From positions 1-21,244 of the IMG/VR virus record IMGVR_UViG_3300031227_010529: a DNA stretch of 21,244 nucleotides; one strand, 5' to 3'. The DNA comes from a virus. Positions 2,134-20,098 of this stretch are shown here, in pieces (within the stretch, counting starts at the first letter, position 1; the number at the start of each line of letters is the position of its first letter). A program made the position numbers and the translations under genes. The notes under the pieces were generated by a model. That model did no database searches and was not told the origin of the DNA. It saw only the letters and a list, made by a program, of their open reading frames with translations.

Positions 2134-2142
2134 GGATTTGTT

Positions 2143-2466: not shown

Positions 2467-2470
2467 TTTG

Positions 2471-2476
2471 AAGGAA
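2471..2476 (+). promoter_or_regulatory. Ribosome binding site fixing the portal start
   Basis: AAGGAA lies 6 nt upstream of the ATG at 2483. A TTG at 2468 is also in frame but has no site in front of it and would translate through this one. The same AAGGAATTTG-x-TATG arrangement precedes the gene at 7904. Confidence 0.7.
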
Positions 2477-2482
2477 TTTGTT

Positions 2483-4399: not shown

Positions 4400-4659
4400 T
4401 GGATCATCAGAAAAATATAGAAAATTTGAATTTAGGCAGAACATCAAGAATAGTCTTAGAAGGTTTAAAGCCAGTTTTAGACCAATGCAGACTAGCTACT
4501 TTATCAGAGATGAAAAGCAACTATCGTTCAGGGGAGATGGATCAAATAAAAATGTTTTCAAAAGTAGCTTCCTTGTGTACCCTAGATGACATAGAGCAAA
4601 GATTGACCACCGGAATAAGAAAAGGTGATAACGCAGCAAAGGAGTTAAACAATGAATGA
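4399..4659 (+). CDS. Small helical protein between portal and scaffold
   Basis: 86 residues, predicted to be mostly alpha-helical, with no membrane segment. The ATG overlaps the portal stop (TAATG), and the 3' end overlaps the scaffold gene by 8 nt, so it is probably translated by coupling with both. It has Cys in QCRLATL and SLCTLDD but no Cys/His spacing that suggests metal binding. I do not recognise the family. Position suggests a head-assembly accessory (portal or scaffold partner); that is inference from context only. Confidence 0.7.
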   Translation: MDHQKNIENLNLGRTSRIVLEGLKPVLDQCRLATLSEMKSNYRSGEMDQIKMFSKVASLCTLDDIEQRLTTGIRKGDNAAKELNNE

Positions 4660-5383
4660 ACAGGTAAAAACAGAAGAAAAAGTCATTGAACCAACAACAG
4701 AAATTGTTGATAGTGGTGCTGAAGACCTTTTTAACTCAAGTGTTGAAGAAAAACAAGCAAAAGTAGAAACTCAAGAAGAAACTGTCATTTATGAAGGCTT
4801 TGGAAGAAAGTTTACTTCTTCAGAAGATTTGGCCGAATATACAAAAGAATTAGAAATGCGTGTTGCTTCTAGTGAAATGGAAAAGCACAAAGCTAGTGAA
4901 TTGAAGCAAGAATCTACAGTTGCCAAGAACATCGGTGCTCAACAGCAAGATTCAGTGGTCACAGATGAGATGTCAGATAAAATCTTTGAGAATCCAAAAG
5001 CAGTTCTTCAAGAGCTAGAAACAAAGATTGAACAGAAATATGATCGAAAAGCTAACCAGCAACAAACAGAGAAAAATTTCTGGGAAGGCTTTTACGCAGA
5101 TAATCAGGATTTGAAAAAAAGCAAAAGAGTGGTAGACTTAATACTGAAGGAAAAATCATCGATTCTTTCTTCAATGGAAGTAAATAAGGGCAAAGAATAT
5201 TTAGCGAAGGAAACCAGATCTTTCATGGAAGGGATCGGGGGAAATTTGGGAACTAAAGAGAAACTGACAAATGAAGGGACAACTAACTTGGGGACATCTC
5301 AACTTAACGGTGGGGCGCAAACTAAAGTAGTCGAAAAATCGGATTTTGTAAGTGAAATGAGAAGCTATCAAAGAAAAAACTAA
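4652..5383 (+). CDS. Capsid scaffolding protein
   Basis: 243 residues; directs procapsid assembly of the neighbouring major capsid protein and should be lost before or during packaging. It is highly charged, Glu/Lys/Gln-rich, with no hydrophobic core segment. The N-terminal ~45 residues are acidic and likely disordered. A short folded element follows (VIYEGFGRKFTSSEDLAEYTKELEMR), then long helical stretches rich in heptad-like charge (FENPKAVLQELETKIEQKY), a Gly/Asn/Thr-rich linker, and a small C-terminal helix ending SYQRKN. The position immediately before the major capsid gene is diagnostic. AAGGAG lies upstream of the ATG, which overlaps the previous gene by 8 nt. Confidence 0.82.
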   Translation: MNEQVKTEEKVIEPTTEIVDSGAEDLFNSSVEEKQAKVETQEETVIYEGFGRKFTSSEDLAEYTKELEMRVASSEMEKHKASELKQESTVAKNIGAQQQDSVVTDEMSDKIFENPKAVLQELETKIEQKYDRKANQQQTEKNFWEGFYADNQDLKKSKRVVDLILKEKSSILSSMEVNKGKEYLAKETRSFMEGIGGNLGTKEKLTNEGTTNLGTSQLNGGAQTKVVEKSDFVSEMRSYQRKN

Positions 5384-5396
5384 TTAGGAGGTTTTA

Positions 5397-6344: not shown

Positions 6345-6354
6345 GGAGATTGAT

Positions 6355-6807
6355 ATGATGTATAACAAATTATCAACAAATTATTTTATTCCTAAAAGTG
6401 CAAGTCGTTTGACAGCAGAAGATTTAACTGCTTCAGCAGCCGTTTATGACGGAATGATTTGCACAAGAGCTTGTAGAGTTTCAAGATTGATGTTTGTAGT
6501 AACTACTTTAGTTGCAACAGATACAATCAAGGCAGCCGTTGAGTTTAATAGAAGACCTACAATTGCTTCATCAGCAGCAGAAGTTCTAATGGGAACTTTG
6601 ACTATTCCAGATACTTCAGCAGTTGGAACCGTTGTTTATAAAGACATCGATCCTGTAGAATTTGCACCAGGCGAAGAACTTTCGTTTGAGCATTCTGTAG
6701 CTGGAACTGATGGATCATCAGCAGCCGGAGCAGGATTTTATTCTTTTGAAATTGAAGATTCTCCAGAAGAACCTTTGAATCAAACTAATATGGTAGCTTC
6801 AGCTTAA
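6355..6807 (+). CDS. Putative head decoration or fibre-like structural protein
   Basis: 150 residues, low in charge and rich in Ala, Thr, Val and Ser, with alternating patterns typical of beta structure (e.g. CRVSRLMFVVTTLVATD). There is no signal peptide or transmembrane helix. AAGGAG overlaps the end of the capsid gene; I chose ATG 6355, although a second ATG follows at once at 6358. It lies between the major capsid gene and a strong terminator, so it shares the high expression of the capsid gene. That fits a stoichiometric decoration or cement protein; the role is inferred from place and composition. Confidence 0.65.
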   Translation: MMYNKLSTNYFIPKSASRLTAEDLTASAAVYDGMICTRACRVSRLMFVVTTLVATDTIKAAVEFNRRPTIASSAAEVLMGTLTIPDTSAVGTVVYKDIDPVEFAPGEELSFEHSVAGTDGSSAAGAGFYSFEIEDSPEEPLNQTNMVASA

Positions 6808-6819
6808 TTTAATTTTATG

Positions 6820-6851
6820 AAAGGGGTTGGGTAATTCCGCCCCTTTTTTTT
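6820..6851 (+). terminator. Intrinsic terminator after capsid genes
   Basis: AAAGGGG at 6820-6826 pairs with CCCCTTT at 6840-6846, with an inner GGG/CC able to extend the stem inside the loop. A run of eight T spans 6844-6851. It lies 12 nt after the stop of the 150-residue gene and just before the next gene's ribosome site, in an otherwise unbroken operon. Partial readthrough would set a high capsid to low tail expression ratio. Confidence 0.82.
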
Positions 6852-6852
6852 C

Positions 6853-6858
6853 AGGAGG
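6853..6858 (+). promoter_or_regulatory. Ribosome binding site fixing the start at 6863
   Basis: AGGAGG sits 4 nt before ATG 6863. An upstream in-frame TTG (6827) would place the start inside the terminator hairpin and lacks its own site, so the ATG is preferred. The site abuts the terminator T-run. Confidence 0.75.
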
Positions 6859-6862
6859 TTTT

Positions 6863-7360
6863 ATGACTGATCTTGTAGCAACAGATGTGGTAGTAACCAT
6901 TGTTAATAAAAGAGATATAGAGAACAGGGCACACAACAGATGCAAGCTAGTTTTTGGAGACAGTGCTTTAACTTATCCTGCTGGTGGAATTCCAATTACA
7001 AAAGGACATTTTGGTTGTCCAACAATAATCGAATCAATGAAAATAGTAGATCAAGGAGTTTCTGGTTACAGTTTTTCTTATGATCAATCTGCTGAAAAAA
7101 TTGTTATGATTCAGGCCCCAGTTCAAACACATACACATGATATATTGCTGAAAAATGCAGCGGTAGCTGATGGAGCAACAGAGAGACTAAACGTAGCTGC
7201 TGATAAAATTGGAGCCAACACTGGTGCTGATTTAACAATTACAGGTGGCGGAGCTGATGGCGGAGTTGTTAGCACAGTTCTTGCAGCAGCAGCCGGATCA
7301 CAGCCAAGTACAGTGGCAATCGCAGAGCAAACAATAGAAGTAGAAGTAATAGGCTGGTAG
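6863..7360 (+). CDS. Structural-type protein, function unknown
   Basis: 165 residues from ATG 6863. The N-terminal half is mixed, with a YSFSYDQSAEKIVMIQ segment that looks like a beta-hairpin. The second half is Ala/Gly-rich (TITGGGADGGVVSTVLAAAAG) and may be a flexible or fibre-like region. No catalytic motif, signal peptide or clear membrane helix. It is the first gene after the capsid terminator, in the segment between head and tail genes where minor head proteins are common. The TPSQ-like hydrophobic C terminus resembles neither neighbour. I do not recognise the family. Confidence 0.62.
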   Translation: MTDLVATDVVVTIVNKRDIENRAHNRCKLVFGDSALTYPAGGIPITKGHFGCPTIIESMKIVDQGVSGYSFSYDQSAEKIVMIQAPVQTHTHDILLKNAAVADGATERLNVAADKIGANTGADLTITGGGADGGVVSTVLAAAAGSQPSTVAIAEQTIEVEVIGW

Positions 7361-7376
7361 GCCAAAAGGAGCAAAG

Positions 7377-7889
7377 ATGTCACATGGTAAATTTGATTTA
7401 AGAGTTCATATCAGAGATCCAAAAACAGGCAGAGTTGAAAAGATTCAGCCTTACAGACTTGTTATCAGAAATGGTGAGCAAAGATTTTGGAGAGGCGGAG
7501 TAGAATTTTTCGGTGACGGAACTCCTGTTAATCCTGAAGAAGCTGCTAAGATGAAGCCAGTTATGACTTTAGAAGAAAAGCATAATGCAGATGCTAAAGC
7601 TATTTTAAAAGCAGAGTTAAAATCTGAACTTATGCAAGAACTAAAAGAAGAAGCTGCTGAAGAAAGAAGAGCTAAAAAACTTGAAAAAGAATTGAAGCTA
7701 AAAGAAGAAACGGAAGCAGCAGAACTTGCAGAAATTGAAAAAACTAAAGCAGAGAGAGTTGAGGATAAAAAGATTGAACTTAAAAGAATTGAAGATCAAA
7801 AGATTGTAGATAAAAAAATTGCCGATCTAAAAGCTAAAAGATTGACTGATGATAAAAATAAAAACAAGACCAAGACTAGAATACCTTAA
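7377..7889 (+). CDS. Lys/Glu coiled-coil protein
   Basis: 170 residues in two parts. Residues 1-60 look globular, with basic and aromatic strands (KIQPYRLVIRNGEQRFWRGG). Residues 65-165 are almost entirely Lys, Glu, Ala, Leu, Ile and Asp with a heptad-like pattern (ELKSELMQELKEEAAEERR), predicting a long single helix or coiled coil, then a basic Lys/Thr tail. AAAAGGAG at 7364-7371 precedes the ATG. Lying among minor structural genes it could be a head-completion or fibre/stem component. No family is recognised, and the low complexity makes similarity searches of the second part unreliable. Confidence 0.66.
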   Translation: MSHGKFDLRVHIRDPKTGRVEKIQPYRLVIRNGEQRFWRGGVEFFGDGTPVNPEEAAKMKPVMTLEEKHNADAKAILKAELKSELMQELKEEAAEERRAKKLEKELKLKEETEAAELAEIEKTKAERVEDKKIELKRIEDQKIVDKKIADLKAKRLTDDKNKNKTKTRIP

Positions 7890-7903
7890 TAAAGGAATTT
7901 GAT

Positions 7904-8647
7904 ATGAGTATTTCCGAACCAATTTATAGAAAAACATTTGCTTATGCAGAAAAAGCGTATGAATCAGCTTTGGTCGCTCAGTCTGCAAAACAGCTTGCTC
8001 TTTATAATGTTCTTTGTAGAAATGCTACTGGTAGTGCAATCGCTATGGGTATCTTTACTAGAATGAATAACCCTGAAACTAAAATTTATAATTACGTTGC
8101 AGTTGGAACCGTTTTAACTGACATTACAGCAGCAATTCAAGCAGAAACAGCAACAGAGATTCTTGCAGCCGATGGTGATGCAATTGTTATTGGAAATATA
8201 GATCAATCTGGCCTAATTGGATTCAATGGCACAATAGCGGAAACAGGAACAGCAGCAACTTATACTTTGAAATATTATAATGGAACAGCGATGGTAACTC
8301 TTCCAAATTTTGAAGTTATAACTGCTTTTGCAGCTAACAGAAATTATATAGTTTTCGCAGCCCCCATTGATTGGGTAAAAGGCGGAGTATCTGGTGCTAA
8401 TACAGATAAGTATTATGTTGAATTTAAAGCTACAGCAGCAGCAGGAACAACAGCTCCAACTATCGATGAAATCTGGTTAGGAAAAATGCACGCTTATAGA
8501 AGTAATATTGCAGCTCATGGAACAATTGATATTGAAGTTGTAGACCATACAAAGCCATTAACTCTATCAAGCGAAGAAGGCGTTCTTCCATATTTCGCAA
8601 CAGCAAATGCTGGCAACACAGTCGAGATTGCTTATAACAATCTCTAA
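7904..8647 (+). CDS. Structural-type beta-rich protein, function unknown
   Basis: 247 residues, few charges, rich in Ala, Thr, Ile and Asn, with repeated short strand-like runs (YNYVAVGTVLTDITAAI; DAIVIGNIDQSGLIGF). An N-terminal helical start (YRKTFAYAEKAYESALVAQSAKQ) precedes the beta part. AAAGGAATTTGAT upstream gives a good ribosome site. The composition resembles the 150-residue gene at 6355, and both contain AVGTV encoded by the identical 15 bases. It may be a decoration, head-fibre or connector-associated protein; the evidence is composition and location only. Confidence 0.62.
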   Translation: MSISEPIYRKTFAYAEKAYESALVAQSAKQLALYNVLCRNATGSAIAMGIFTRMNNPETKIYNYVAVGTVLTDITAAIQAETATEILAADGDAIVIGNIDQSGLIGFNGTIAETGTAATYTLKYYNGTAMVTLPNFEVITAFAANRNYIVFAAPIDWVKGGVSGANTDKYYVEFKATAAAGTTAPTIDEIWLGKMHAYRSNIAAHGTIDIEVVDHTKPLTLSSEEGVLPYFATANAGNTVEIAYNNL

Positions 8648-8650
8648 AAA

Positions 8651-8656
8651 GAGAGG
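8651..8656 (+). promoter_or_regulatory. Ribosome binding site for a TTG start
   Basis: GAGAGG is 6 nt upstream of TTG 8663. The frame has TAA just upstream (8644-8646) and no ATG nearby, so the TTG is the best start for the adaptor gene. Confidence 0.68.
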
Positions 8657-8662
8657 TTCTAT

Positions 8663-9628
8663 TTGGCAAACTTTCAAACTTCAGCCGACCTTCTAAAAGG
8701 TGCCCTACATGAAGCAGGAGAAGTCGATAACGGTAACTCTCCCCTTCAAGCAAAAGCTTTAGAATATTTAAACTTATCTTACCTCAATGTTTTGTCAGGC
8801 TCGAATGAATTTGACATAGATTGCGGTGAGCCTTGGTATTGGGCAAGAGAAGAATATCCTGCAAATATTGTTTTAAAAGCCCCTTATGAAACTGATACCG
8901 TAGTTATGGTTAAAGATTCAGCAGATGGAGTTTTCACAACTGCACCAGCAGCTTCAATGGTTGGAAGACATCTAAAAATAAATGATCGACCAGACTATTT
9001 TATTATCACAACTCATGTGTCCGGAGCCGTTGACTTCACCATGAACTCTGTCTATACAGATGAAAGTGGAACTCTTAGTTTTAAGGCCATCAAACTTCTT
9101 TATACTTTATCAGAAGATATTTTAAGATTCGTTGAACCATTTAGAGTTTATCAGAATCAATCAAGATACGATTCAGTAGGAAAAATTTTTAGTATGGAAA
9201 TGAGAGTTTTCAGAACTCAATATCCTTTAACTGTTCTTGAAAGAGGTGTCCCTGATTATTTCTCAATTTCAAAGCAAGATGGAAGCACTTTTACAGTTCA
9301 GTTTAACAAGTATGTTTCAAAAGACACTAAAGTTGATTTAGATTATATAAAACTACCAGCAGTTTTGACAGACAGTGCAGCTTCAATACCTTTGATACCG
9401 CCTCAACACAGAACTATTTTAATGTATATGACAGCGGCGTTATTATTAAATGATAAAGATGACAAAAAATCAGCAAGCATGGGAGCACTAACTAAAGTAA
9501 AACTAAAAGCAATGTGCAAAGAGCCTGCAAAACAAGAACAACATGCAAGTAAATTTAGAGGAAGAATTGTGGCTAGGAAAGATTTATTTAGTACTTCCAA
9601 CAATTCTTACTACTACAACAAATATTAA
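8663..9628 (+). CDS. Head-tail adaptor / tail tubular protein A-like
   Basis: 321 residues from a TTG start. It probably forms the ring joining portal to tail nozzle. The N-terminal helical part (LLKGALHEAGEVDNGNS...ALEYLNLSYLNVL) resembles the four-helix part of podovirus adaptors. A beta domain in the middle has the recurring sequence MVGRHLKINDRPDYFIITTHV, then a strand run ending LSEDILRFVEPFRV, where related phage proteins have an LP-x-D-x-x-R-x-x-x-P pattern. The C-terminal helix (IPLIPPQHRTILMYMTAALLL then NDKDDKKSAS) is also typical. It lies just before the nozzle gene, as T7 gp11 precedes gp12. Function is inferred from these patterns and order. Confidence 0.68.
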   Translation: MANFQTSADLLKGALHEAGEVDNGNSPLQAKALEYLNLSYLNVLSGSNEFDIDCGEPWYWAREEYPANIVLKAPYETDTVVMVKDSADGVFTTAPAASMVGRHLKINDRPDYFIITTHVSGAVDFTMNSVYTDESGTLSFKAIKLLYTLSEDILRFVEPFRVYQNQSRYDSVGKIFSMEMRVFRTQYPLTVLERGVPDYFSISKQDGSTFTVQFNKYVSKDTKVDLDYIKLPAVLTDSAASIPLIPPQHRTILMYMTAALLLNDKDDKKSASMGALTKVKLKAMCKEPAKQEQHASKFRGRIVARKDLFSTSNNSYYYNKY

Positions 9629-9641
9629 TTGAGTATGAATT

Positions 9642-11231
9642 ATGTACGATGGACAATCAGTAACAATACCTTTAGGAACCGGAGGCCTTTACACCGACGA
9701 TCCTGATACAATAACTCCCTCTTCAAAACTTTCAAGGGCCGTGAACATTAGCCTTCTGAGAGGAAAAATAGAAAAAGATTTTGGCTCAAGAAAATGGAAC
9801 AACGAAGCTCTACCAGATAAGGTTTTGCATATTGTTGATTGGTGGCCAAATACAGTTACTCAAAGATTTGTTGCAGTTTGTGGAGATGGTAAAACTTATA
9901 GATTTAGACATTCTCATTACTCTGAACTAATAACTCCTGACACAACTGCTCCCGGTGTTTTAAGCACAACCGGATATATTACATCAACTGAAGGTGGGGC
10001 AGAATCCGCAGGATCAGATAAAAAATTATTTATATTTACAGGCAATAACGAGATTCAAGTTGTGACCGGAGATGAAACAACTAGAACAAATATTGAAAAG
10101 CCTGCTGCTGATTGGTCGGGGAATAATCAACCTTTTAAGGGAATTATTCATAGAGGGTATCTGTTTGCTTTTGGAAATGAAAATGCTCCAAGTCGCATAT
10201 ATAGATCATCTTCTACAGACCATGAAGATTTTACGACCCTTCCTTGGACAGATAATATTTTTCCCGGCGAAGGTGAGATGTTAATGGATGCTATCAGTTT
10301 TAAAGGCAAGCTGATGGTTTTTAAGTTTCCTGTAGGAATTTATATTTTAAATGATGCAGATGCTACCCCAGGAAATTGGTACTTCCAAAAATTTAATGAA
10401 TCAGTGGGCACAGTTTCTCCTTTTGCTATTTGGGAAGTCTTAAATGATTTACTGATTGCAAATGAGCATGGAACAGTTACTTCTCTTTCTGCAATTGATG
10501 CTTATGGAGATGTTGAGTCAGCGGATCTTTTTAATAATCTCAGAGTAGATGATGCTATAGATCAAGAAATGAATCTAACTGGTGGCAACCAAAGACGAGC
10601 AATTTATTATGGTGCCAAGAAAATGGCCTATGTCACATATCAAAGTCTCGCAGGAATAGCTAACGATCGAATTGTGCAAGTCAAATTTGGCTCAAGAACT
10701 CCTGAAATAACAATATCTGATAAAGATCAACCAAATTGCCTAGCTTTAAGAAAAGATATTTTTGGTGTCAAAAGACCCTTCTATGGTGCCAATGATGGCT
10801 TTATTTACCAAATGGATACAGTTGACAGGGATGTGGCAGGAAACGCTTACAGGGGCGAATTTCAGACTCCTAACATGGATTTTGGAAACTTAGATCCAAG
10901 GCTGGCTGAGACTAGCAAAAATTTCGATTTCCTTGAGGTTATTTATGAGCCAACAGGTTATGCGGAAATTACAATTGAATACTATATAGATGGAAGATAT
11001 ATCGACACAAGGCAGATTGACCTTAGAGGTTTTTCAACTCTTGGTGTTATTAAAACCGATGAAGATAGAATGAGTGCTCTTTGTCCTATGTCTAAAAGAA
11101 TCCCGATAATGGGCCAAGGTAGAAGAATTAGCGTAAGAATTTACAATGATGGTCTATTAGAGAATTTTAAAATTACAGGATTAAAGATATACTTTAAGAT
11201 ACAAGGTGAACAACAAACCGTAAGGGAGTAG
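9642..11231 (+). CDS. Tail nozzle / stabilisation protein, P22 gp10 or T7 gp12-like
   Basis: 529 residues, almost all beta structure, likely a propeller-based subunit of the tail tube or nozzle. The N terminus (IPLGTGGLYTDDPDTITPSSKLSRAVNI, then G-x-x-x-x-x-FGSRKWN) matches the opening of many podovirus nozzle/stabilisation proteins. Several blade-like strands follow (KLFIFTGNNEIQVV; GYLFAFGNENAPSRIYRSSS; GKLMVFKFPVGIYIL). The C-terminal part (RRISVRIYNDGLLENFKITGLKIYFK) is the expected receptor-binding-platform type segment. The start lies 13 nt after the adaptor stop; the ribosome site is weak (GAG only). The fibre gene starts 2 nt after its stop. Confidence 0.72.
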   Translation: MYDGQSVTIPLGTGGLYTDDPDTITPSSKLSRAVNISLLRGKIEKDFGSRKWNNEALPDKVLHIVDWWPNTVTQRFVAVCGDGKTYRFRHSHYSELITPDTTAPGVLSTTGYITSTEGGAESAGSDKKLFIFTGNNEIQVVTGDETTRTNIEKPAADWSGNNQPFKGIIHRGYLFAFGNENAPSRIYRSSSTDHEDFTTLPWTDNIFPGEGEMLMDAISFKGKLMVFKFPVGIYILNDADATPGNWYFQKFNESVGTVSPFAIWEVLNDLLIANEHGTVTSLSAIDAYGDVESADLFNNLRVDDAIDQEMNLTGGNQRRAIYYGAKKMAYVTYQSLAGIANDRIVQVKFGSRTPEITISDKDQPNCLALRKDIFGVKRPFYGANDGFIYQMDTVDRDVAGNAYRGEFQTPNMDFGNLDPRLAETSKNFDFLEVIYEPTGYAEITIEYYIDGRYIDTRQIDLRGFSTLGVIKTDEDRMSALCPMSKRIPIMGQGRRISVRIYNDGLLENFKITGLKIYFKIQGEQQTVRE

Positions 11232-11233
11232 AT

Positions 11234-13090
11234 ATGGCTGGTGGATTATGGTCAAGAATAAAAACGTGGATTGCAAATGAAGAAATACTTGCAGCGGATC
11301 TCAATGCTGAGTTTGATAATATAAAAACTAATTTAAGCCTTGCAACTCTCGATGATATTTCAAGCAATGTCACAGAAATGCAGCAGACTTTTGATCCGGG
11401 CGGTGTTGGAACTGAAAATCAGCCAACAACTTCAGGTGAAGAATTAAAAGCTCTTAGATCGATGATTAAAAAAGTAACTGGTGAGTCAGTTTGGTATGTT
11501 CCTCCGGGTTCAAGCCTTTCAACTCTCGCAGCTTCAATTGGCCTAACAACTCCTGATAACAGATTGGTTTCAGGTTTATTAGATTCTGACAATCAGCCTA
11601 TGTCACTTCAGGCAGATGGTTCAACTTTGGATGCAGTTGTAAAAGCAACTTTAACTCCTTTGGTTTTTTCAATTGAAGGCCAAGAATATACAAAGTCAGC
11701 AGATGATACAGTGGCCGTTGCAACAGGGCCGGATATTACTAACGCACTTAATCAGGCACAATTTGCCGATACAGTAATAACCGATGATGCGGATTCAAAA
11801 ATTTTAGGGGAAGATAAACCAAGTATAATTTTTCTAGATACAGTGGGGGCAACTTTTGCCGGTAAGAAAGATACTCTGTGTGCCTTTACAACAACTCATG
11901 CGACAGATGGCATTGAATATTTTATAGGAATTTTAAGAGAAGACTCAGCCACTTCGGAATATTATTTAGAGAGATGCAGAAGAGGATTTTTTTACAACTC
12001 TTCCCAAGTCGGACAAAGGGTTAGACTTGATGAATCAGCAGGACAAGTAGTGGCTTGGCTTCAGCTTTCTTATATTTTCATTAAAACAGATGGAACTCTT
12101 ATAGATACTATTAATGCACCTTTCGTTGCAACAACTTCTCCGACAGCGATAGCTACAGACGATATGTGGTTTGATTTAACAAATGATAAATGGTTGAGAT
12201 GGACAGGTTCAGCTTGGGCGGATTCAACAGCAACCTTTCTTGGCTACACAGCTCAGAAACAGGGTGCTTGCATGGCTTCAAGAGTTCAGCATTATTACAA
12301 GGCCTTTGATTCACTTTGCAATATAGGACTTATTTCTCAGAGTTATGAAAGTAATCCAACTGTCCTACAGGCAACAACAGTAGGAGCAGAGATAAATATA
12401 AATGGAACTAAAGTTAATTACTGGGCTGACTTACTTGAATGGAATGCAGTATCTGATATGGACACAGGGGCAATTGCTGCCAGTACTAAATATTATCTAT
12501 ACCTTAATAATGAATTTGAACCAAAAATTTCTCTTGTGAAACCTTATGATAGGCAAATGGATATGAAAGGATATTATCACCCTTGGAAGCCATGGAGATG
12601 CATAGGATTTACTTACACTGATTCAAGCACATATTTTTCAACAATAGTAGGAATTGGCGGATCTTCTCATATCTCAGATGGCGGATTAAATTTAACAAAA
12701 TTATCTTCTTATTCAAATATTTTAGGTGGAGCTTTTTCTAGAAATATTTATTCTTATGCTGAAGTAGCTGCTGTTACTAATACAACTACAAGTTCAATTA
12801 AAATAAAAACTGGTGCAAGACCTGTATTCTACGGAATAATAGGAAGTACGGTTTCAGGTGATAGTGTTATTGCCGTTGGTGCAGGGACTATTACAATGGA
12901 AATAAGATTCAGAAATGACGGAGATTGGTCTGGATGGAATGTAATAAGTGTTGCGAGCTATAATTTAACTGGCACAATACCTTGTAATGTTTCAGGGATA
13001 TTTCGTGGAGTAAATGCAGATGCAGAACTCAGAGCAACTATCTCAACAAATGTGACGGTAACTGGTCGCTTAGTAGCTTGTGAGCTTTAG
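11234..13090 (+). CDS. Tail fibre / receptor-binding protein
   Basis: 618 residues; the probable adhesin for host recognition. The N-terminal segment WIANEEILAADLNAEFDNIKTNL is the conserved attachment-type motif found at the start of many phage fibre and spike proteins. After a linker with helical stretches (residues ~40-90), the rest is low-charge, Thr/Ser/Gly/Asn-rich beta structure, typical of trimeric fibres. The C terminus (SGIFRGVNADAELRATISTNVTVTGRLVACEL) looks like a compact tip. No enzymatic depolymerase motif or intramolecular chaperone cleavage site is visible. AAGGGAG overlaps the nozzle stop. Host range would be set largely by the C-terminal half. Confidence 0.77.
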   Translation: MAGGLWSRIKTWIANEEILAADLNAEFDNIKTNLSLATLDDISSNVTEMQQTFDPGGVGTENQPTTSGEELKALRSMIKKVTGESVWYVPPGSSLSTLAASIGLTTPDNRLVSGLLDSDNQPMSLQADGSTLDAVVKATLTPLVFSIEGQEYTKSADDTVAVATGPDITNALNQAQFADTVITDDADSKILGEDKPSIIFLDTVGATFAGKKDTLCAFTTTHATDGIEYFIGILREDSATSEYYLERCRRGFFYNSSQVGQRVRLDESAGQVVAWLQLSYIFIKTDGTLIDTINAPFVATTSPTAIATDDMWFDLTNDKWLRWTGSAWADSTATFLGYTAQKQGACMASRVQHYYKAFDSLCNIGLISQSYESNPTVLQATTVGAEININGTKVNYWADLLEWNAVSDMDTGAIAASTKYYLYLNNEFEPKISLVKPYDRQMDMKGYYHPWKPWRCIGFTYTDSSTYFSTIVGIGGSSHISDGGLNLTKLSSYSNILGGAFSRNIYSYAEVAAVTNTTTSSIKIKTGARPVFYGIIGSTVSGDSVIAVGAGTITMEIRFRNDGDWSGWNVISVASYNLTGTIPCNVSGIFRGVNADAELRATISTNVTVTGRLVACEL

Positions 13091-13098
13091 GAGTAATT

Positions 13099-14043
13099 AT
13101 GGGATTTGATTTTGGAAGAGCGATAACAGGCGTAGCAACAATGGGGGTTTCGGAAATCCTCGGTGCTCCGGGCAGAGCGCAAGCTAAAGCTCAAGGAGAA
13201 GCCGCACTGGCGCAGCAATCAGCCGCAGCACAAGGACTAGCTTATCAAAAAGAAACCAGACAAATGGCTATGGATGCAGCAAATCCGGGCTACGAAGAAC
13301 TTGCAGCAGTTAATAGACTTCTTGGAACAAGAGATAGAACGCTACAGTTACAAGAATATAATATTCAACAAGAAATGAAACTTTTGGAGTCAGTTGATCC
13401 GGCCTTGAGAGAAGCTGGTAAGCAAGCCTTTGACCTTCTTCAAGGTAAAGAGGCAGCAGCTCTTAGCCCTTTAAGAAAGCAAAGAGAAACTGAGCAAAAG
13501 AAGTTAGAAAACAGATTAGCTAGTCAGCTCGGTTCAGGCTGGGCAACTTCTAGTGCTGGTATGCAAGCCTTAAATGATTTTGATACTCAGACAGATCAAG
13601 TAATGAATCAAGCTCAACAGCAAACTTTAGGTTCCCTTTTGGGAGTCGCAGCTAATGTTCGTCCCAATATGAATCAAACAGTTCAAACAATGGGACAAAC
13701 TATTGGTGGCCTTGATCAGTCCTTACTTCAGGCTCAACAAAATGTTGCTGGTAGAAAAGTTAATGCAATAACTGGTTCTCCTGTTAATTTTGGAAATGTT
13801 ATTAAAACAGCAGGAGCAGGACAGGTTGCCGAAATAGGCAAACAGCAGGCAACAGGACAGACAATGGGTTCTTTGTTGCAAATAGGTGGAACATTAGGCG
13901 GTGCATTTCTAGGTGGCCCAGCAGGAGCCTCCGCAGGATCAACAATGGGAAAAACAATGGGATCACAGCTTAATTCAGGAGCAGGAAATTATAATCAAGA
14001 TCCTTCTGAGATAACAAGTGGCTTTAACAGTATGAATTATTAA
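13099..14043 (+). CDS. Internal virion / DNA ejection protein, Gln/Ala-rich
   Basis: 314 residues; probable internal core protein released into the host envelope with the DNA. An N-terminal hydrophobic/Gly segment (RAITGVATMGVSEILG) is followed by a long Gln/Ala/Leu helical region, including ALSPLRKQRETEQKKLENRLASQLG, a pattern I know from other phage structural genes at this position. Near the C terminus is a glycine-zipper stretch (IGGTLGGAFLGGPAGASAG, about residues 262-280) capable of membrane insertion or oligomer packing. It is the first of three consecutive such genes after the fibre gene. The ejection role is inferred from composition and order (compare P22 gp7/20/16 or T7 gp14/15/16). 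Confidence 0.62.
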   Translation: MGFDFGRAITGVATMGVSEILGAPGRAQAKAQGEAALAQQSAAAQGLAYQKETRQMAMDAANPGYEELAAVNRLLGTRDRTLQLQEYNIQQEMKLLESVDPALREAGKQAFDLLQGKEAAALSPLRKQRETEQKKLENRLASQLGSGWATSSAGMQALNDFDTQTDQVMNQAQQQTLGSLLGVAANVRPNMNQTVQTMGQTIGGLDQSLLQAQQNVAGRKVNAITGSPVNFGNVIKTAGAGQVAEIGKQQATGQTMGSLLQIGGTLGGAFLGGPAGASAGSTMGKTMGSQLNSGAGNYNQDPSEITSGFNSMNY

Positions 14044-14053
14044 AGGATAAATT

Positions 14054-15223
14054 ATGGCAGAAATAGTAAATCCATTGAAAGGTGTAGCAGGCTCAATAAG
14101 TACTGGCCTTGAGCTTGGTGCAAAAATGAGTGAAGTTAAAATGCAGCAAGAAGCAATGGTAATGAAGAAAGAAAAATTCAAGATGCAAAAGAATACTTAT
14201 AGAGTTAATTTGCTTACGAAAATAACTAACGATGCGAAGAAGCTCAAGTTTATGTCTCCGGCGGTTGCCAAGGCTGCTTATAAAAGAATGGAAAAAAATC
14301 TAATAGATTCTGAGATACCTTTATCTGAAGAGTTTAAAGCTATGGCACTAGATAGAGATCCTGAAGCTATACTTAAATTTTCAAAAGGTCTAACGGCTGT
14401 TGAAGATGGAATTGTTACTCACGAACAGGGAGAAGAAGCTCAAACTTTTATAGATTCTTTAAGTACAGATGAATTTATGGATGTAATGTTAAAGGCATCA
14501 GAGAGAAGATCAAAACAAGCTATGCTTGACGCAAATATGGCCATGAAATTTAATGACAAAGACTATGCGAGAAATCTTAAAGAAAGAAAATTTAATGCAA
14601 AAATAGAAGAACAAGATAGAAAAAGAGTTGATAAATACAAAACTGATGTTGGTAAAATAGCAAGTGATTTTCGTGCTTGGGATGTTGCTGGTTCACAAAT
14701 TGGACTAATATCTGATAGGTATAAGAAAACTGGGAAGATTGGGGCCCAAGATAAGGTGACTCTAGTAAGACAATTTTCAGCATTAACAGAAGCTCGAAAA
14801 AGTGTTGTTCGACAAAATGAATATGACACAATTGCAGGAGCAGCAGGGTTATGGGATAAGGTAACAAACGAGGTTAAGAAATTAGTAAAAGGTAGTCCAA
14901 TTCCAGACAAAGTGGCAACAGACATCATGGACACTTACGGTAGATACCGAAAATCAATGAAAAGTATTAAAAGAGCAGCATTTTCTCCAACATGGAACGC
15001 TCTTAGACAAACAGGATTAACGAAATATAAAAGCTCAGTATTTGGAGAGTATCAAAGCATATTTAAAACTCCAAGAAGAACTACTAGAAGAAGAGTTGCT
15101 CCAAAAGCAAAAGCTCCTGCTTCGGCAAGATCAAGAGCATTGTCAATGATTAAAAAACTTGAGGCAGGAGGCAAAAAGTTAACTCCAGCTCAAAAGTTAA
15201 AAGTAATTAAAAGATTTAAGTAA
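14054..15223 (+). CDS. Internal virion protein, helical, basic C terminus
   Basis: 389 residues, strongly helical and basic. An N-terminal GVAGSISTGLELGAKMSEVK segment leads into charged helices (MVMKKEKFKMQKNTYRVNLL). A middle domain around residues 95-160 contains short acidic helices, and the last ~55 residues are Arg/Lys/Ala/Pro-rich (TPRRTTRRRVAPKAKAP), suggesting contact with packaged DNA. No enzymatic motif is visible. AAAGGA precedes the ATG, 10 nt after the previous stop. It sits between two glycine-zipper proteins and is most simply the second ejection/core protein. A tape-measure role is unlikely given the rest of the tail genes. Confidence 0.6.
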   Translation: MAEIVNPLKGVAGSISTGLELGAKMSEVKMQQEAMVMKKEKFKMQKNTYRVNLLTKITNDAKKLKFMSPAVAKAAYKRMEKNLIDSEIPLSEEFKAMALDRDPEAILKFSKGLTAVEDGIVTHEQGEEAQTFIDSLSTDEFMDVMLKASERRSKQAMLDANMAMKFNDKDYARNLKERKFNAKIEEQDRKRVDKYKTDVGKIASDFRAWDVAGSQIGLISDRYKKTGKIGAQDKVTLVRQFSALTEARKSVVRQNEYDTIAGAAGLWDKVTNEVKKLVKGSPIPDKVATDIMDTYGRYRKSMKSIKRAAFSPTWNALRQTGLTKYKSSVFGEYQSIFKTPRRTTRRRVAPKAKAPASARSRALSMIKKLEAGGKKLTPAQKLKVIKRFK

Positions 15224-15235
15224 TCGGAGATTAGT

Positions 15236-17434
15236 ATGGGAATGAGAGGCGAACTACCAACACCAAGACCAGACGCAATTGAAAGCCCTATTCCAAATGC
15301 AGGATTAGAGCAAGAGGAACTTCAGCAATTAGTTGAACTCGATCAGCCAGTTTCTACAACTTCAAATACTTCTCAAGTTGCTGAAGCTGAACAAGAGATT
15401 GATCCTGAACTAGAAAATCCTCCAATGGAGCAACAGGCATTTGACGATATTCAAAGGGCACCAGCAGGAGATCCTACGTTCGAAGAGATGCAAGCTGAAC
15501 TTGGTATCACTCCAACAGAGAAAATTAAAAGCGTTTTGGAGCAGCAAGGATTTTTCCAAACATTAGTAGATAGAATGAAAGTTGGAACTGCACTAGAGCC
15601 GGGTGGAAGTAAGAAAAGAGCACTTCAAATTGCTAGAAGACTGTACCCTGATTCAGAAGTTTCTCAAGATAAGAAAGGTGAAATTTTAATTGATGGTGAA
15701 AGATTTGATAAAGAAGATTGGGAAGTGGCAGATATTGCCGATTGGTCAGGAGACTTTATTGAAGCAATTTCCAGTATGTTAGTTGAAGGTGGAGCAATAG
15801 CCGGAGCTACAGCAGCGGGGATGCCAGTAGCAGGCGTTGGTGGCGTTGTATCAGGAGCAATAGCTTATCCAATAGCAGCCGGAGCCGGAGCAGCCGCAGG
15901 AATAAATGCTAGAGAACAGGCAATGATAGCAGAAGGCGGAGATGCCTTAACAGATGAAGAGCGAAATGCAATGGTTCAAGAAGCGACCTTATATAACATT
16001 GCAGGAATGGGAGTTGGCAAAATTTTCAAAAGTTCATTTAAAGGAATCAAAGGTTTAGTTGGTTCATTCATAGAATCTCGTCCAAAAAATATTATTACAA
16101 AATTAGCAGTTGTCCACAAAGGTGTAGACGATATGGCTAGAAAATTTGGTATTCCATCTACACCAAAAATGGCTGGCGAAAAAGTAGAAAGTGTGGTCGT
16201 TAATTTAAACAAAAGATTGGGAAAAGAAGTTGGCCTACTTAAAGATGAACTCAAACAAGTTTCAAAAGGTAGGAATTTTATTCCTGAAGGATATTTAAAA
16301 GGAACTAGAGAACTATTAGAAGACCAGAAAGTTGACTTTGATAATTTTGGATTTGCTACAAATGTTAGGGGAAAATCTTTAACATTAGAAAGTGGTAACC
16401 ATGGAATAACAGCTTTAAATCAAATATCTGAACAGTATAATAGAATTTTAGGTAAAATCCATGATGGAAATTTTGGTATAGAAGAGATGTTTGACGAAGC
16501 AGGATCATTAGCAAAAGGCGTTGATTGGGACATACAAGCAGGAGCTTCAAAAAGCGCACTCAACAGGCATTTCACCGATCTATCCACTATGCTTGCATCA
16601 GATAAAAATATAGCTGCTGAACAAGCTGCCAAGGGCACAAAGTATGAAGGCCTAGTTAAAGGAATAATGGGCAACTTTTCAAACAGAGCAAAAGACCTTG
16701 CAGATATAAGAAACCTAGCAACCAACAAAGAAAGCCAAGAACTTTTTATGGATGCTCTTGTTAATCGAGAAAATTCAGAAAGGCTTATAAAGCTTCAATC
16801 AATGTTAGGCGGAGAAGGTTCGAGACATTGGAAAGAGTTTAAAAGCAGTTGGTTTGCAAGAAAAATGGAAAAATCAATTGATCCTGGAACTGGAATATTT
16901 AATGCAAATAAATTTTTGAGTACTGTATCTGACGCTACTCTCGGGGGAGATACTAGGAAAATAATGATAAATAATGTTGATTACGGAAAGCTCAGAGTAG
17001 CTTCAAGAGCATTCGATGAAACAGGCGTTACCGAAGTTCTTAGCAAGGGTGGAGAACAAGCTACCAAAATTATAATTGGTCTTAACAGTCCATTTAGAGC
17101 AGCAAAAATGGGAGCAGTTAAAAAGATACTTGCTGGAAATGCCCATGCAGCCGATTATTTACTAGACAGAGGTTTTGTTGAAATGGCTGAGAAGGCAGAA
17201 TCAAGAGCTGCAAAAATGAATATACTCGGAGCAAAACAATTTATTGAACAGTGGGTAGGTAATTCTAAAATGGTTAAAACTATTGGTGGAAGAACTATAT
17301 ATGTGACCAAGCCAACTGTTAGAAACGTGGCAAGAATTAAAACTAGAAATAAATACCATGAAGAACAAGGTATTCCAATTGAAGAAAATAGAGATCCAAC
17401 TTTTGAAGAAATGCAAGCGGAATTAGGACTATGA
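15236..17434 (+). CDS. Large internal virion / DNA ejection protein with terminal repeat motif
   Basis: 732 residues, the largest virion protein in the window. Residues 1-90 are acidic, Pro/Gln-rich and likely disordered, ending in DPTFEEMQAELG (79-90). After a small basic domain (SKKRALQIARRLYPDSEVS), residues ~183-224 form a long Gly/Ala-rich hydrophobic region with glycine-zipper spacing (GAIAGATAAGMPVAGVGG), a good candidate for a membrane-crossing segment. The remaining ~500 residues are helical and mixed-charge. The protein ends with a second copy, DPTFEEMQAELGL, at the very C terminus. No lytic transglycosylase or RNA polymerase motif is seen. It is the third of the ejection-type genes; its stop overlaps the peptidase ATG (ATGA). 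The ejection role is inferred. Confidence 0.65.
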   Translation: MGMRGELPTPRPDAIESPIPNAGLEQEELQQLVELDQPVSTTSNTSQVAEAEQEIDPELENPPMEQQAFDDIQRAPAGDPTFEEMQAELGITPTEKIKSVLEQQGFFQTLVDRMKVGTALEPGGSKKRALQIARRLYPDSEVSQDKKGEILIDGERFDKEDWEVADIADWSGDFIEAISSMLVEGGAIAGATAAGMPVAGVGGVVSGAIAYPIAAGAGAAAGINAREQAMIAEGGDALTDEERNAMVQEATLYNIAGMGVGKIFKSSFKGIKGLVGSFIESRPKNIITKLAVVHKGVDDMARKFGIPSTPKMAGEKVESVVVNLNKRLGKEVGLLKDELKQVSKGRNFIPEGYLKGTRELLEDQKVDFDNFGFATNVRGKSLTLESGNHGITALNQISEQYNRILGKIHDGNFGIEEMFDEAGSLAKGVDWDIQAGASKSALNRHFTDLSTMLASDKNIAAEQAAKGTKYEGLVKGIMGNFSNRAKDLADIRNLATNKESQELFMDALVNRENSERLIKLQSMLGGEGSRHWKEFKSSWFARKMEKSIDPGTGIFNANKFLSTVSDATLGGDTRKIMINNVDYGKLRVASRAFDETGVTEVLSKGGEQATKIIIGLNSPFRAAKMGAVKKILAGNAHAADYLLDRGFVEMAEKAESRAAKMNILGAKQFIEQWVGNSKMVKTIGGRTIYVTKPTVRNVARIKTRNKYHEEQGIPIEENRDPTFEEMQAELGL
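15470..15505 (+). repeat. Peptide motif copy 1 (DPTFEEMQAELG)
   Basis: Codons 79-90 of the 732-residue protein. The peptide is identical to the copy at 17393-17428, but 7 of 12 codons use a different synonym, so the two are conserved as protein rather than as recent DNA duplicates. Confidence 0.9.
17393..17428 (+). repeat. Peptide motif copy 2 (DPTFEEMQAELG), C-terminal
   Basis: Codons 720-731 of the 732-residue protein, one residue before the stop. It matches residues 79-90 at all 12 positions despite extensive synonymous change. The C-terminal location suggests an exposed docking or anchoring peptide. Confidence 0.9.
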
Positions 17435-17814
17435 TTTTAACAAGTGACAATTTTAAATACGGAAATCTAATAGAAGAATATATACAGGCTCCACTAATGC
17501 TTGAATTTCTAATAGATGACTTCTTTCACATATCTGATGTCATTGGAAGACGAGCTGTGTGTGTAAGAATTTTCGGGAAACATCCAGGTGACTCTGGGGT
17601 GCATCTCGACGAAAGGGCCGCTGATTTCAGGGACGAGTTTGGCGGTGTTTTTATTTACACAAAAGACGAAGTGGAGTTTATCAAAAAATACATAAATGGC
17701 AAGTACAAAAGGAATGATGGGTATGAAACTTGTATACATCACAGCTTTGATAATGGGCCTGCTCATTTCCATTTGCAAATACCAAGAGATACCAAAAACT
17801 TACGAAAATTATAA
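17431..17814 (+). CDS. M15-like peptidase, probable endolysin
   Basis: 127 residues, compact, matching the size of a single-domain Zn D,D- or L,D-peptidase that cuts peptidoglycan cross-links. A zinc-site pattern is visible: H58 in DSGVHLDERAAD, D65 seven residues later (as in the S-x-H-x(6)-D motif of M15), and H112/H114 in GPAHFHLQI near the C terminus. R41-R46 upstream could be the substrate-binding Arg. Two departures from the family: Gly56 stands where the Ser of S-x-H is expected, and there is no Asp/Glu three residues before a C-terminal His (nearest is D107). No signal peptide is present, so release would depend on a holin. The ATG overlaps the ejection gene stop (ATGA). A virion-associated role is possible. 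Confidence 0.68.
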   Translation: MILTSDNFKYGNLIEEYIQAPLMLEFLIDDFFHISDVIGRRAVCVRIFGKHPGDSGVHLDERAADFRDEFGGVFIYTKDEVEFIKKYINGKYKRNDGYETCIHHSFDNGPAHFHLQIPRDTKNLRKL

Positions 17815-17818
17815 GGAG
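17813..17818 (+). promoter_or_regulatory. Ribosome binding site fixing the start at 17825
   Basis: AAGGAG overlaps the peptidase TAA and sits 6 nt before ATG 17825. It favours a 67-residue product over longer forms that would begin inside the peptidase gene. Confidence 0.7.
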
Positions 17819-17824
17819 AGTTCT

Positions 17825-18028
17825 ATGAAAGGCATTAAAAAAATAGTTAGAAAAAAGAAAATGGGTAAAAAGATTATGTCGATTACTGAAGCAACTAAAA
17901 GAGGCGTTTTTACTGGTACTAAAAGCGGTGAAACAACCAAGTCTGCTTCTTACCAAAAAAGGCACCAGAAAAATCTTAAAAAAATACAAGAAATGGGATA
18001 TTCTAAAATAGAATTATTAGACGATTAG
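17825..18028 (+). CDS. Small basic protein in lysis region
   Basis: 67 residues, strongly basic at the N terminus (MKGIKKIVRKKKMGKK) and mixed toward an acidic end (IELLDD). No membrane segment is present in this form. The frame is open upstream into the peptidase gene, where an alternative ATG (17723) would add a hydrophobic N terminus. Located between the peptidase and a small membrane protein; the next ATG follows its stop after 8 nt, and the ribosome site of that gene overlaps this stop. Family unknown; a lysis accessory or DNA-binding role are both possible. Confidence 0.62.
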   Translation: MKGIKKIVRKKKMGKKIMSITEATKRGVFTGTKSGETTKSASYQKRHQKNLKKIQEMGYSKIELLDD

Positions 18029-18036
18029 GAGATTTT

Positions 18037-18243
18037 ATGAAAAAAATAGGTCTATCTATTCTTGGAATACTTATTGCAGCCGTAGTCCTCGGAGCTGTCG
18101 ACAAAATAAGTCAATTACAATTATTAGACCAAAGAGAAGCTGAGCATTATAAAAGTGTTTTAGAGTTAAAAGGCGACATTAAGGGCATCAAGAAGTATCT
18201 TTTAACAGGTGAGAAGAAATATCTCATTGAAAACGATAAATAG
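18037..18243 (+). CDS. One-helix membrane protein, holin- or inner-spanin-like
   Basis: 68 residues: a basic start (MKK), a hydrophobic helix at about residues 4-22 (IGLSILGILIAAVVLGAV), then a charged helical tail (DKISQLQLLDQREAEHYKS) with coiled-coil character. This N-in, periplasmic-tail layout fits a short inner-membrane spanin subunit or an unusual holin. AGGAG (18027-18031) overlaps the previous stop. It is followed after 13 nt by a putative lipoprotein gene, the order expected of an i-spanin/o-spanin pair. It is short for an i-spanin, so the function remains tentative. Confidence 0.6.
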   Translation: MKKIGLSILGILIAAVVLGAVDKISQLQLLDQREAEHYKSVLELKGDIKGIKKYLLTGEKKYLIENDK

Positions 18244-18256
18244 CAAAGGAGCTAGT

Positions 18257-18649
18257 ATGAAGAAAATTTTAGCAGTTATGATGATTTTCAGTTTATTAAC
18301 AATGGTTTCATGTGACTCATGGAAGAACACTACAGCGACAATTGTTGCAAGTGGACTTACTCCAGTTATTGCAGGGGCATTTTCATGTACTGGTGTTGAA
18401 TACATCAATGCAGATGTTAAAGAAAAAATTCTAGACATTCCGTGGCTAAAAAAGAAGTCAGTTAAAAAAGCTTATTCAGATAAAGGTGTGGCCAACGTAT
18501 TATGTGTTTCAATTGCTAGTACTGTTTTACCATTACTTATAAATGTAGGGGTTTCAGAATTGCCAGAAGATTGGAAATGTACAGGTTCTCTTGTAGGTGG
18601 TGGTCTTAGCGATCTTGCCGTTGAAGCTTGTTCGAAAATATCTATATAA
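18257..18649 (+). CDS. Putative lipoprotein
   Basis: 130 residues from ATG 18257, chosen because AAAGGAG (18245-18251) precedes it and it opens a typical signal peptide: MKK, hydrophobic core ILAVMMIFSLLTMV, then S-C. The Cys at residue 19 follows MVS, an approximate lipobox (Met where Leu/Val is usual at -3), so lipidation is likely but not certain. The mature part has three further Cys (in AFSCTG, VLCVS, WKCTG) plus one near the end (EACSK), which could form disulphides in the periplasm. Possible roles are an outer-membrane spanin subunit or a superinfection-exclusion lipoprotein. Neither is supported by a recognised family. Confidence 0.66.
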   Translation: MKKILAVMMIFSLLTMVSCDSWKNTTATIVASGLTPVIAGAFSCTGVEYINADVKEKILDIPWLKKKSVKKAYSDKGVANVLCVSIASTVLPLLINVGVSELPEDWKCTGSLVGGGLSDLAVEACSKISI

Positions 18650-18655
18650 ATAAAT

Positions 18656-18674
18656 GGCCCTTCGGGGCCTTTTT
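18656..18674 (+). terminator. Intrinsic terminator with TTCG loop
   Basis: GGCCC (18656-18660), TTCG loop, GGGCC (18665-18669), then TTTTT (18670-18674). The stem is perfect, the loop is a stable UUCG tetraloop, and it lies 6 nt after the lipoprotein stop. It acts on plus-strand transcripts; on the minus strand only a broken T-run (ATTTATTTATAT) follows the hairpin. Confidence 0.88.
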
Positions 18675-18688
18675 AATTTGGAGGTAAC

Positions 18689-18859
18689 ATGAAGTTTTTC
18701 GCTGATATTAATACAATAATAGGTGCAACAACAATGGTTCTCATGGGTGTTTCTGCAATTTTTACGTTTATTCCTGGGGATCAGCCGGAAAAGACTTTGG
18801 ATAAAATCACTAAGATTCTTACTAAAATTTCAAGAAAAAAGAAAAATTTTTTAAGGTAG
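18689..18859 (+). CDS. 56-residue one-helix membrane protein after the terminator
   Basis: ATG 18689 is preceded by GGAGG (18680-18684) at 4 nt spacing, a strong site. The product has an N-terminal hydrophobic helix (about residues 8-28: NTIIGATTMVLMGVSAIFTF), a short PGDQPE turn and a basic amphipathic tail (TKILTKISRKKKNFLR). This resembles small phage holin-like or membrane-active proteins. It lies beyond the terminator that closes the lysis cluster, so expression needs readthrough or a promoter I cannot identify. Its last 9 bases overlap the stop end of the converging ATPase gene. No family recognised; the strong ribosome site and membrane layout argue that it is real. Confidence 0.66.
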   Translation: MKFFADINTIIGATTMVLMGVSAIFTFIPGDQPEKTLDKITKILTKISRKKKNFLR

Positions 18860-20098
18860 GGTTTCTTCTGCCATTTTCTCGGCATAATCTTTGTAAACAA
18901 AATACTGCGTTTCATTATCAGATTCAATATCAACAGTTCCCATTTCTACAAGATTTCTTAAACTGTCAGCTAATGGGCCACCATTTTTTTTCACGTTAAA
19001 ATGTGCCCTAATTTCTTCTTTAGAAGCTTTTCCCTTGCTTTTAATGAAATCCTGCACGTTGAAATTGGAAATAATTGCCACAGATGGGTTATATTTTTCA
19101 GCTTTTTCAGCTCCAAGATCAAAAGCGTTAAACATTCCTTCTTCTACAGATTCTAAAACTTGTCCGGCCCACTCAAAATGGCTCGGGAGAATGTATAAAT
19201 CGTCCCTCTTAGACACTGAACGAATCATGCTTAGTTTCAGTAGCAAATCTCCTTTTCGTGCCAAATAGCCCGTAAATCTGCCATCTGTGTTAGGAGTTAC
19301 GACCTCTTTCATATGATACTGATACCAATCGGTGAAATCTTGCTTCATTTGAGGGTGAATCTTAACTTCTCCTTTTAGATCATTAATCCAAATTAAATCT
19401 TCTATAAGCTTTGTCTTCATTGCTGCTCTTCGCTCAGAGTACTCCGGCCAAGCCACAAATTTGTCGGGGCCCTTGTTTTCCACAACAAAAACAGCTCGAG
19501 CAGTAAAGCCGCCCTCCATTTCGCTAACTGGAATACATTTTTTTAACCATGCTTCTGTGGAAGCCCCGAGAATATTCAGACAAGGCCCAAAGATTTTGAC
19601 AGCATCCTGGTGCCTTGCCTTATAAACCCAGGGCTTTTTTGGATCATTTGGCTGGCAATCGTAAAAAGTGGTCAGAAGCTCGGTAGTTTGACCGTAAACT
19701 TCATTCATTAAGACCAAAAGTTCACTTGCATAAGCATAAAGTGGAGATTGTGAGATTTGCTGAGCTCCTATTTCAAATTTTTTTCTGGCATTGTGCATTT
19801 GGTCTATTAAAGAGGCAGCGGTCAGCCTTTCGGACATGAATTTAATGTCTGGAACTTCTTTTAAAAGATCAATTCCAATAGATGTTGAAGTAGATTTTTT
19901 GATAAGGCCTGATCTTCCGATAATAAAAATATACAGATTTGGAAAAAGTGTGTAATAACCTCTGTTCATCCAGACTTTTCTTTCCATTGCTCCGGCCAAA
20001 ACTGAAAGCACCGTCCACAAGTGGATCTTTGTCGTTGCCTCATGCCCACTAGAATAATCTAGATAGGCCTCTATAAAATCGGTAAAGTTTCTCTTCAT
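18851..20098 (-). CDS. DUF3987-type ATPase, replication-associated
   Basis: 415 residues. The N-terminal pattern (HLWTVLSVLAGAMERKVWMNRG, then LFPNLYIFIIGRSG) and the later LNILGASTEAWLKKCIP and GGFTARAVFVVE are typical of the DUF3987 family of phage and plasmid primase-helicase-like ATPases. The P-loop is GRSGLIKKST (residues 61-70), unlike the canonical G-x(4)-G-K-S/T: the second Gly is Ile and there is one extra residue. ASELLVLMNE (124-133) is in the Walker B/acidic position, and R201 could be an arginine finger. Residues ~345-410 look like a winged helix (KASKEEIRAHFNVKKNGGPLADSLRNLVEMG). It lies last in the minus operon, 15 nt after the RusA-like gene, with AAAGG upstream of its ATG. 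Confidence 0.76.
   Translation of the reverse strand: MKRNFTDFIEAYLDYSSGHEATTKIHLWTVLSVLAGAMERKVWMNRGYYTLFPNLYIFIIGRSGLIKKSTSTSIGIDLLKEVPDIKFMSERLTAASLIDQMHNARKKFEIGAQQISQSPLYAYASELLVLMNEVYGQTTELLTTFYDCQPNDPKKPWVYKARHQDAVKIFGPCLNILGASTEAWLKKCIPVSEMEGGFTARAVFVVENKGPDKFVAWPEYSERRAAMKTKLIEDLIWINDLKGEVKIHPQMKQDFTDWYQYHMKEVVTPNTDGRFTGYLARKGDLLLKLSMIRSVSKRDDLYILPSHFEWAGQVLESVEEGMFNAFDLGAEKAEKYNPSVAIISNFNVQDFIKSKGKASKEEIRAHFNVKKNGGPLADSLRNLVEMGTVDIESDNETQYFVYKDYAEKMAEETLP

Follow-up and report, generated by a model that had tools for sequence, protein, structure and literature searches.

Why would a large phage protein carry the same 12-residue peptide near both of its ends? The question is raised by a viral stretch of 21,244 nucleotides (the window), in which an open reading frame (ORF) at positions 15236 to 17434 on the plus strand encodes 732 residues and contains DPTFEEMQAELG at residues 79 to 90 (15470..15505, plus strand) and again at residues 720 to 731 (17393..17428, plus strand). 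The second copy is followed by a single Leu and then by the stop codon. A first-pass annotation of the window had reported the identical 12-mers, the synonymous difference of 7 of their 12 codons, and the position of the second copy at the end of the protein, all of which were confirmed by a pattern search and a codon comparison. The repeat is as reported and is not a trivial finding, and the annotation's further idea that the peptide serves in docking is plausible, with comparative support from the sequences of related phages.

Codon divergence and selection on the peptide

A degenerate pattern for the peptide matched the window only at 15470-15504 and 17393-17427, both on the plus strand, and the number of matches expected from shuffled sequences was 0. 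These matches end one base short of the copies, the final base of each copy being the N of the Gly codon. The two copies differ at 8 of 36 nucleotides, and every difference is synonymous (seven fall on third positions of codons and the eighth on the first position of a Leu codon). When 8 random substitutions were put into either copy, the peptide was unchanged in 0 of 10^6 trials. Codon identity between the copies was 5 of 12, and the expectation for independently chosen codons was 5.2 (uniform usage), 6.6 (window usage), or 6.9 (gene usage). The observed identity is thus at the level of independent choice, meaning that the synonymous sites are saturated and the peptide is unchanged, which suggests one of two histories: great age of both copies under a frozen peptide, or separate selection of each toward the same peptide. 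Selection on the peptide, which the annotation had described as long-term, is strongly supported by the substitution trials and the saturated synonymous sites.

We consider it very improbable that the repeat is a functionless, recent duplication or recombination of a segment, with the C-terminal copy as a passenger. Duplications do occur in related phages, where a repeat in locus L177 and a pair of peptides in a second protein (described below) are recent. A passenger would have acquired an altered peptide, and the restriction of all 8 differences to synonymous changes, together with codon identity at the independent level, disfavors this explanation. Moreover, the likeness between the two copies ends at the motif edges, which argues against the recent copying of a longer segment. 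In the other window proteins, exact internal repeats reached 5 residues at most.

The peptide resembles a single helix with caps, starting at DPT and ending at G, and its helical moment is 0.49. Copy 1 lies in an acidic N-terminal tail (15236..15511, plus strand; approximately residues 1 to 92) with 21 D/E and 3 K/R, and the pLDDT of mostly 26 to 38 in this tail suggests that it is probably disordered. Both copies sit in low-confidence ends and were modeled as short helices (residues 82 to 88 and 723 to 729; pLDDT, <50), in an AlphaFold2 model that was built on six distant rows and was poor overall (pLDDT, 39.6). With disorder read from this low-confidence model, the peptide has the features of a short linear motif in that it is short, located in terminal or flexible tails, repeated, and conserved at the level of the peptide rather than of the codons. 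The internal proteins of T4 and giant phages are trimmed at their ends, and the copies might by analogy be maturation protease sites that trim both ends of the protein. Cleavage behind copy 2 would shorten the protein by a single residue, and no prohead protease was seen between the portal and capsid genes, as judged by position and size only; we regard such trimming as extremely improbable.

Identity of the protein and its gene neighborhood

The 732-residue protein is probably a podophage large ejection (internal virion) protein, packed in the head and injected, as its gene order and its distant relatives suggest. Its gene is the last and largest of an ejection module behind the tail tube genes, and it is the third gene of that module, the position that its counterpart has in the related phage G026. 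The first ejection protein (13099..14043, plus strand) is T7 gp14-like by position, carries the conserved LGxGxxTSSxGxxAL box, and was linked to its L045 and L043 counterparts by 39 to 42% identity and by iterative HMM. By synteny, the second ejection protein (14054..15223, plus strand) is T7 gp15-like and is a candidate partner of the large protein. The order of tail tube genes, gp14-like gene with an LGxGxETSSPGxxAL box, gp15-like gene, and large protein gene is common to the window and its relatives, and the module order was found in approximately 38 contigs. A probable scaffolding protein, assigned by position between portal and major capsid and by composition only (4652..5383, plus strand), is another candidate partner and had no Pfam or PHROG family match.

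The relatives were gathered with the portal, tail tube B, and first ejection protein as queries, and a direct search for homologues of the 732-residue protein in phages, viral contigs, and genomes returned none. The annotation's assignment of a large ejection protein is supported by synteny with the relatives, although the protein had no Pfam or PHROG match, including none to an N-terminal lytic domain. Proteins of this group diverge fast, and not every definition of it asks for sequence similarity to known members. The syntenic large protein of G026 matches the PHROG "internal virion protein" families phrog_6651 and phrog_342, with a lytic domain. Alignment identity between the 732-residue protein and its counterparts in L157, L045, L043, L148, and L158 was 15 to 23%. 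Since these relatives are beyond the reach of BLAST, homology rests on synteny, the 15 to 23% alignment, and architecture; iterative HMMs seeded with the large proteins were suspected of drift and were not used for homology.

By synteny, gene order and role are like those of the T7 gp14/gp15/gp16 ejectosome, but the window protein has no match to the N-terminal lytic domain, and terminal repeats are absent from T7 gp15 and gp16. The window also resembles P22, with gp7, gp20, and gp16, in that three ejection genes form a module behind the tail genes. It differs from the P22 group in that the tested Sf6 homologues lack short terminal repeats (P22 itself was read by eye).

Three other genes of the window were noted. 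The gene at 17431-17814, which overlaps the stop codon of the large ejection ORF, encodes a 127-residue protein that looks like an M15-type peptidase (DERAADFR...HHSFDNGPAHFHLQI) and had no Pfam match at 0.001. A 415-residue gene on the minus strand (18851-20098) is convergent to the ejection module, and similar-looking counterparts of 399 and 402 residues occupy the same place in L043 and L019. By eye, the large terminase ORF (91-2133) contains an apparent intein with a homing-endonuclease-like middle (CYSDDTEVMTKDGWK near its start and HWNGN|T near its end).

Search for the peptide in other proteins

No other window protein contains DPTFEEMQAELG. A contig from the same metagenome (G002, or L166; positions 1-19482) is 100% identical to window positions 1-3826 and adds 15.7 kb of the same genome beyond the overlap, in which the peptide was likewise absent; this contig appears to carry the remainder of the phage genome upstream of the window. 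Across the window and the overlapping contig, the best non-self match was a portal helix with a score of 24, compared with 63 for identity.

The annotation had proposed a search of phage proteins for the motif. In IMG/VR, the matches to DPTFEEM fell into six unrelated contexts, of which one is an 849-residue protein family present in many contigs, a count near chance level by a hand estimate, and the longer DPTFEEMxAE had two matches, which were unrelated. A 90-residue frame in L035 that ends in DPTFEEMS, from the same metagenome as the window, was judged to be a chance occurrence. Cultured phages had no match to the peptide or to the 732-residue protein, the PDB had none to the peptide, and literature searches on motif strings or on disordered motifs in ejection proteins returned nothing. 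From its absence from the other proteins of the window and the overlapping contig, from IMG/VR beyond chance, and from cultured phages, we conclude that DPTFEEMQAELG is not a shared tag, and we rejected it as a widespread phage tag.

A known comparison for such a tag is the T4 capsid targeting sequence, a short peptide that directs internal proteins into the scaffold core (PMC3012670). The T4 sequence is conserved across different cargo, whereas the window peptide is confined to one protein, stands at both of its ends, and changes between related phages; further, cleavage is not indicated for the window motif. The same peptide was not found on several internal proteins in the window and the 19.5-kb overlapping contig, and a tag common to several cargo proteins is thus contradicted for this phage.

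Repeated peptides in related phages

None of the syntenic large ejection proteins of related phages contains DPTFEEMQAELG, and the annotation's notion of a fixed sequence does not hold. Taken formally, this is the absence from homologues that the annotation had named as counting against docking; instead, the relatives carry repeats of their own. Many of their large proteins have a private short repeated peptide in the N-terminal tail: EIDYDALAAEAVAQ twice in L157, GPNIDDLFP twice in L045, LTPEQEAQQLMG/MSPEEEAAQLMG in L043, DPFADL four times in G026 (also L107), DDRRIPLGLE/EDRRMPLGME in L099, and VLELNQGLEEEA/TMNLEFGLEDEA in L159. The N-terminal tails of L116 and L140 likewise have their own repeats, and a repeat in L098 (GFIPL) was under the statistical threshold.

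A few relatives have one copy per end. The 952-residue large protein of L148 has KTEDFFRQYE at residue 4 and RTEDFLRQFE at residue 901 (shared core, TEDFFRQYE/TEDFLRQFE), a two-end layout like that of the window. The large protein of the cultured Shewanella phage ZP9 (WOZ57828.1; 723 residues, annotated as hypothetical) has the same place in the module as the window protein and starts MA-NPFDQFD-AQQE-NPFDQFD, but its peptide is different and both copies are N-terminal. Paired N- and C-terminal repeats were also found in two gp15-like proteins, those of L107 and ZP9, the latter (404 residues) with IDYNMQNP at residue 4 and IDYLMQNP at residue 380. A further locus, in a Bacillota bin reached only via its gp14-like protein, has IRKIWE twice in the large protein, a weak case with a z of 2.5 and identical codons.

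The codons of these repeat pairs are mostly as different as expected from independent choice. The exceptions are the gp15-like pair of G026, two of the three DPFADL pairs in the large protein of G026, and L177. The common pattern is that peptides are matched inside one protein, their DNA is independent, and the next phage has a different peptide. Such a pattern is expected if several copies follow a single binding site that evolves fast. In the open-licence papers that were searched, repeated end peptides that differ from phage to phage appear not to have been described for podophage ejection proteins.

Enrichment in large ejection proteins

The score of each protein was its best self-match without gaps, taken over residues 1 to 150 and the final 60 residues and compared with local shuffles; the threshold was a z of at least 4. 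This threshold was reached by 11 of 38 large proteins, 2 of 49 gp15-like proteins, and 10 of 136 upstream structural proteins. ZP9 was left out of the statistics because it had been found via a motif query; without the window and ZP9, the counts were 9/36, 1/47, and 10/136, respectively, and terminal repeats were enriched in the large proteins over both controls (Fisher test; P = 0.002 against gp15-like and P = 0.006 against upstream structural proteins), in sets that were hand-picked from synteny, with mechanical start codons, from phages that are mutually related and not independent. The upstream structural positives were mainly collagen-like or beta repeats. With the window and ZP9 excluded, 27 of 36 large proteins were below the threshold, and the repeat of one of the nine positives (L101) looks like a folded domain. 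We rejected the L101 repeat as a motif for this resemblance, and that of L152 for its resemblance to low complexity. No terminal repeats were scored in the T7, Sf6, and epsilon15 ejection proteins; the repeat score of T7 gp14 was an overlap artefact. The many large proteins that lack such a repeat speak against the docking reading given below.

A possible docking motif at the two termini

Little is known about the loading of ejection proteins into the head or about their recognition of each other in the cell envelope. Loading of the P22 ejection proteins depends on the scaffold and is mediated by N-terminal regions of gp7 and gp20 (PMC8402733), and the N-loop of the P22 scaffold aids assembly of gp16 (PMC12005531). 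No short motif is known to be defined in the P22 proteins, and the open-licence papers that could be searched define none for docking in any podophage. P22 gp16 and gp20 work only when both derive from one phage, while whole foreign sets function in P22 heads (PMC10883804). Given that P22 gp16 is functional only with a matching gp20, a co-evolving partner may well be a sister ejection protein.

We hold it marginally probable that both copies represent a single phage-specific docking motif, displayed on flexible termini, with a candidate partner that is phage-encoded, multi-copy, and co-evolving. Each copy would form a self-contained amphipathic helix, with a DPT start, a FEEMQAEL face, and a G end. 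From the flexible N- and C-terminal ends, the copies would each bind the same type of site on a multi-copy, phage-encoded partner, for which the neighboring ejection protein and the scaffold are the likeliest candidates. Both ends would thereby be held and avidity gained, either while the internal core is assembled inside the procapsid or when the conduit forms after ejection. If the partner changes fast, the motif would vary between phages and the copies within one protein would stay matched. The docking peptide of the annotation is reasonable in this form and is supported indirectly, by the other end repeats of the relatives' syntenic proteins; a fixed encapsulation tag is not supported. If docking is correct, matched and fast-changing end motifs would offer a direct handle on loading, DNA delivery, and exchange between phages.

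Peptides shared between proteins of one phage

G026, of which L107 is positions 1-14000, carries peptides in more than one protein. Its gp15-like ORF (467 residues; reverse complement, 7237-8640) has PDTGTRGQA at residues 84 and 416, and the DNA of this pair is identical at 26 of 27 nucleotides; judging from this identity, the pair was clearly copied recently. A near-match, PDTDTRGQAS, is present in the large protein. Also, QDPFADLQ of the large protein recurs, with different codons, near the C terminus of a 124-residue protein (reverse complement, 12291-12665, minus strand) that has an N-terminal membrane anchor and is convergent just behind the ejection genes.

These shared peptides bear on where docking would occur and on what. 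It is possible, though not probable, that the motif acts only after ejection, when tail motifs would clip the large protein to its gp15/gp20-like sister and so form the conduit. In that case the motif would have no part in loading of the head. The matching of P22 gp16 with gp20, with the function of foreign sets in P22 heads, favors this timing, as does T7, where gp15 bears wings and a tape made of the N-terminal part of gp16 (PMC8954989). However, PDTxTRGQA occurs in the large protein of G026 as well as in its gp15-like protein, which suggests a common third partner rather than binding of the two to each other. Binding to a host protein after delivery, or to a host chaperone in assembly, is improbable: motifs that are wholly different among related phages go beyond what is expected for a conserved host target, although the 8-residue QDPFADLQ on the membrane-anchored neighbor indicates that the partner need not be a virion protein.

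Compatible with phage-encoded docking is a speculative and quite unlikely extension, in which phage-specific repeated end motifs on the ejection proteins of many podophages would form a self-only assembly code and the membrane-protein copy in some phages (QDPFADLQ in G026) would be a superinfection decoy like P22 SieA. The 124-residue membrane-anchored protein of G026 has the same position as sieA in P22.
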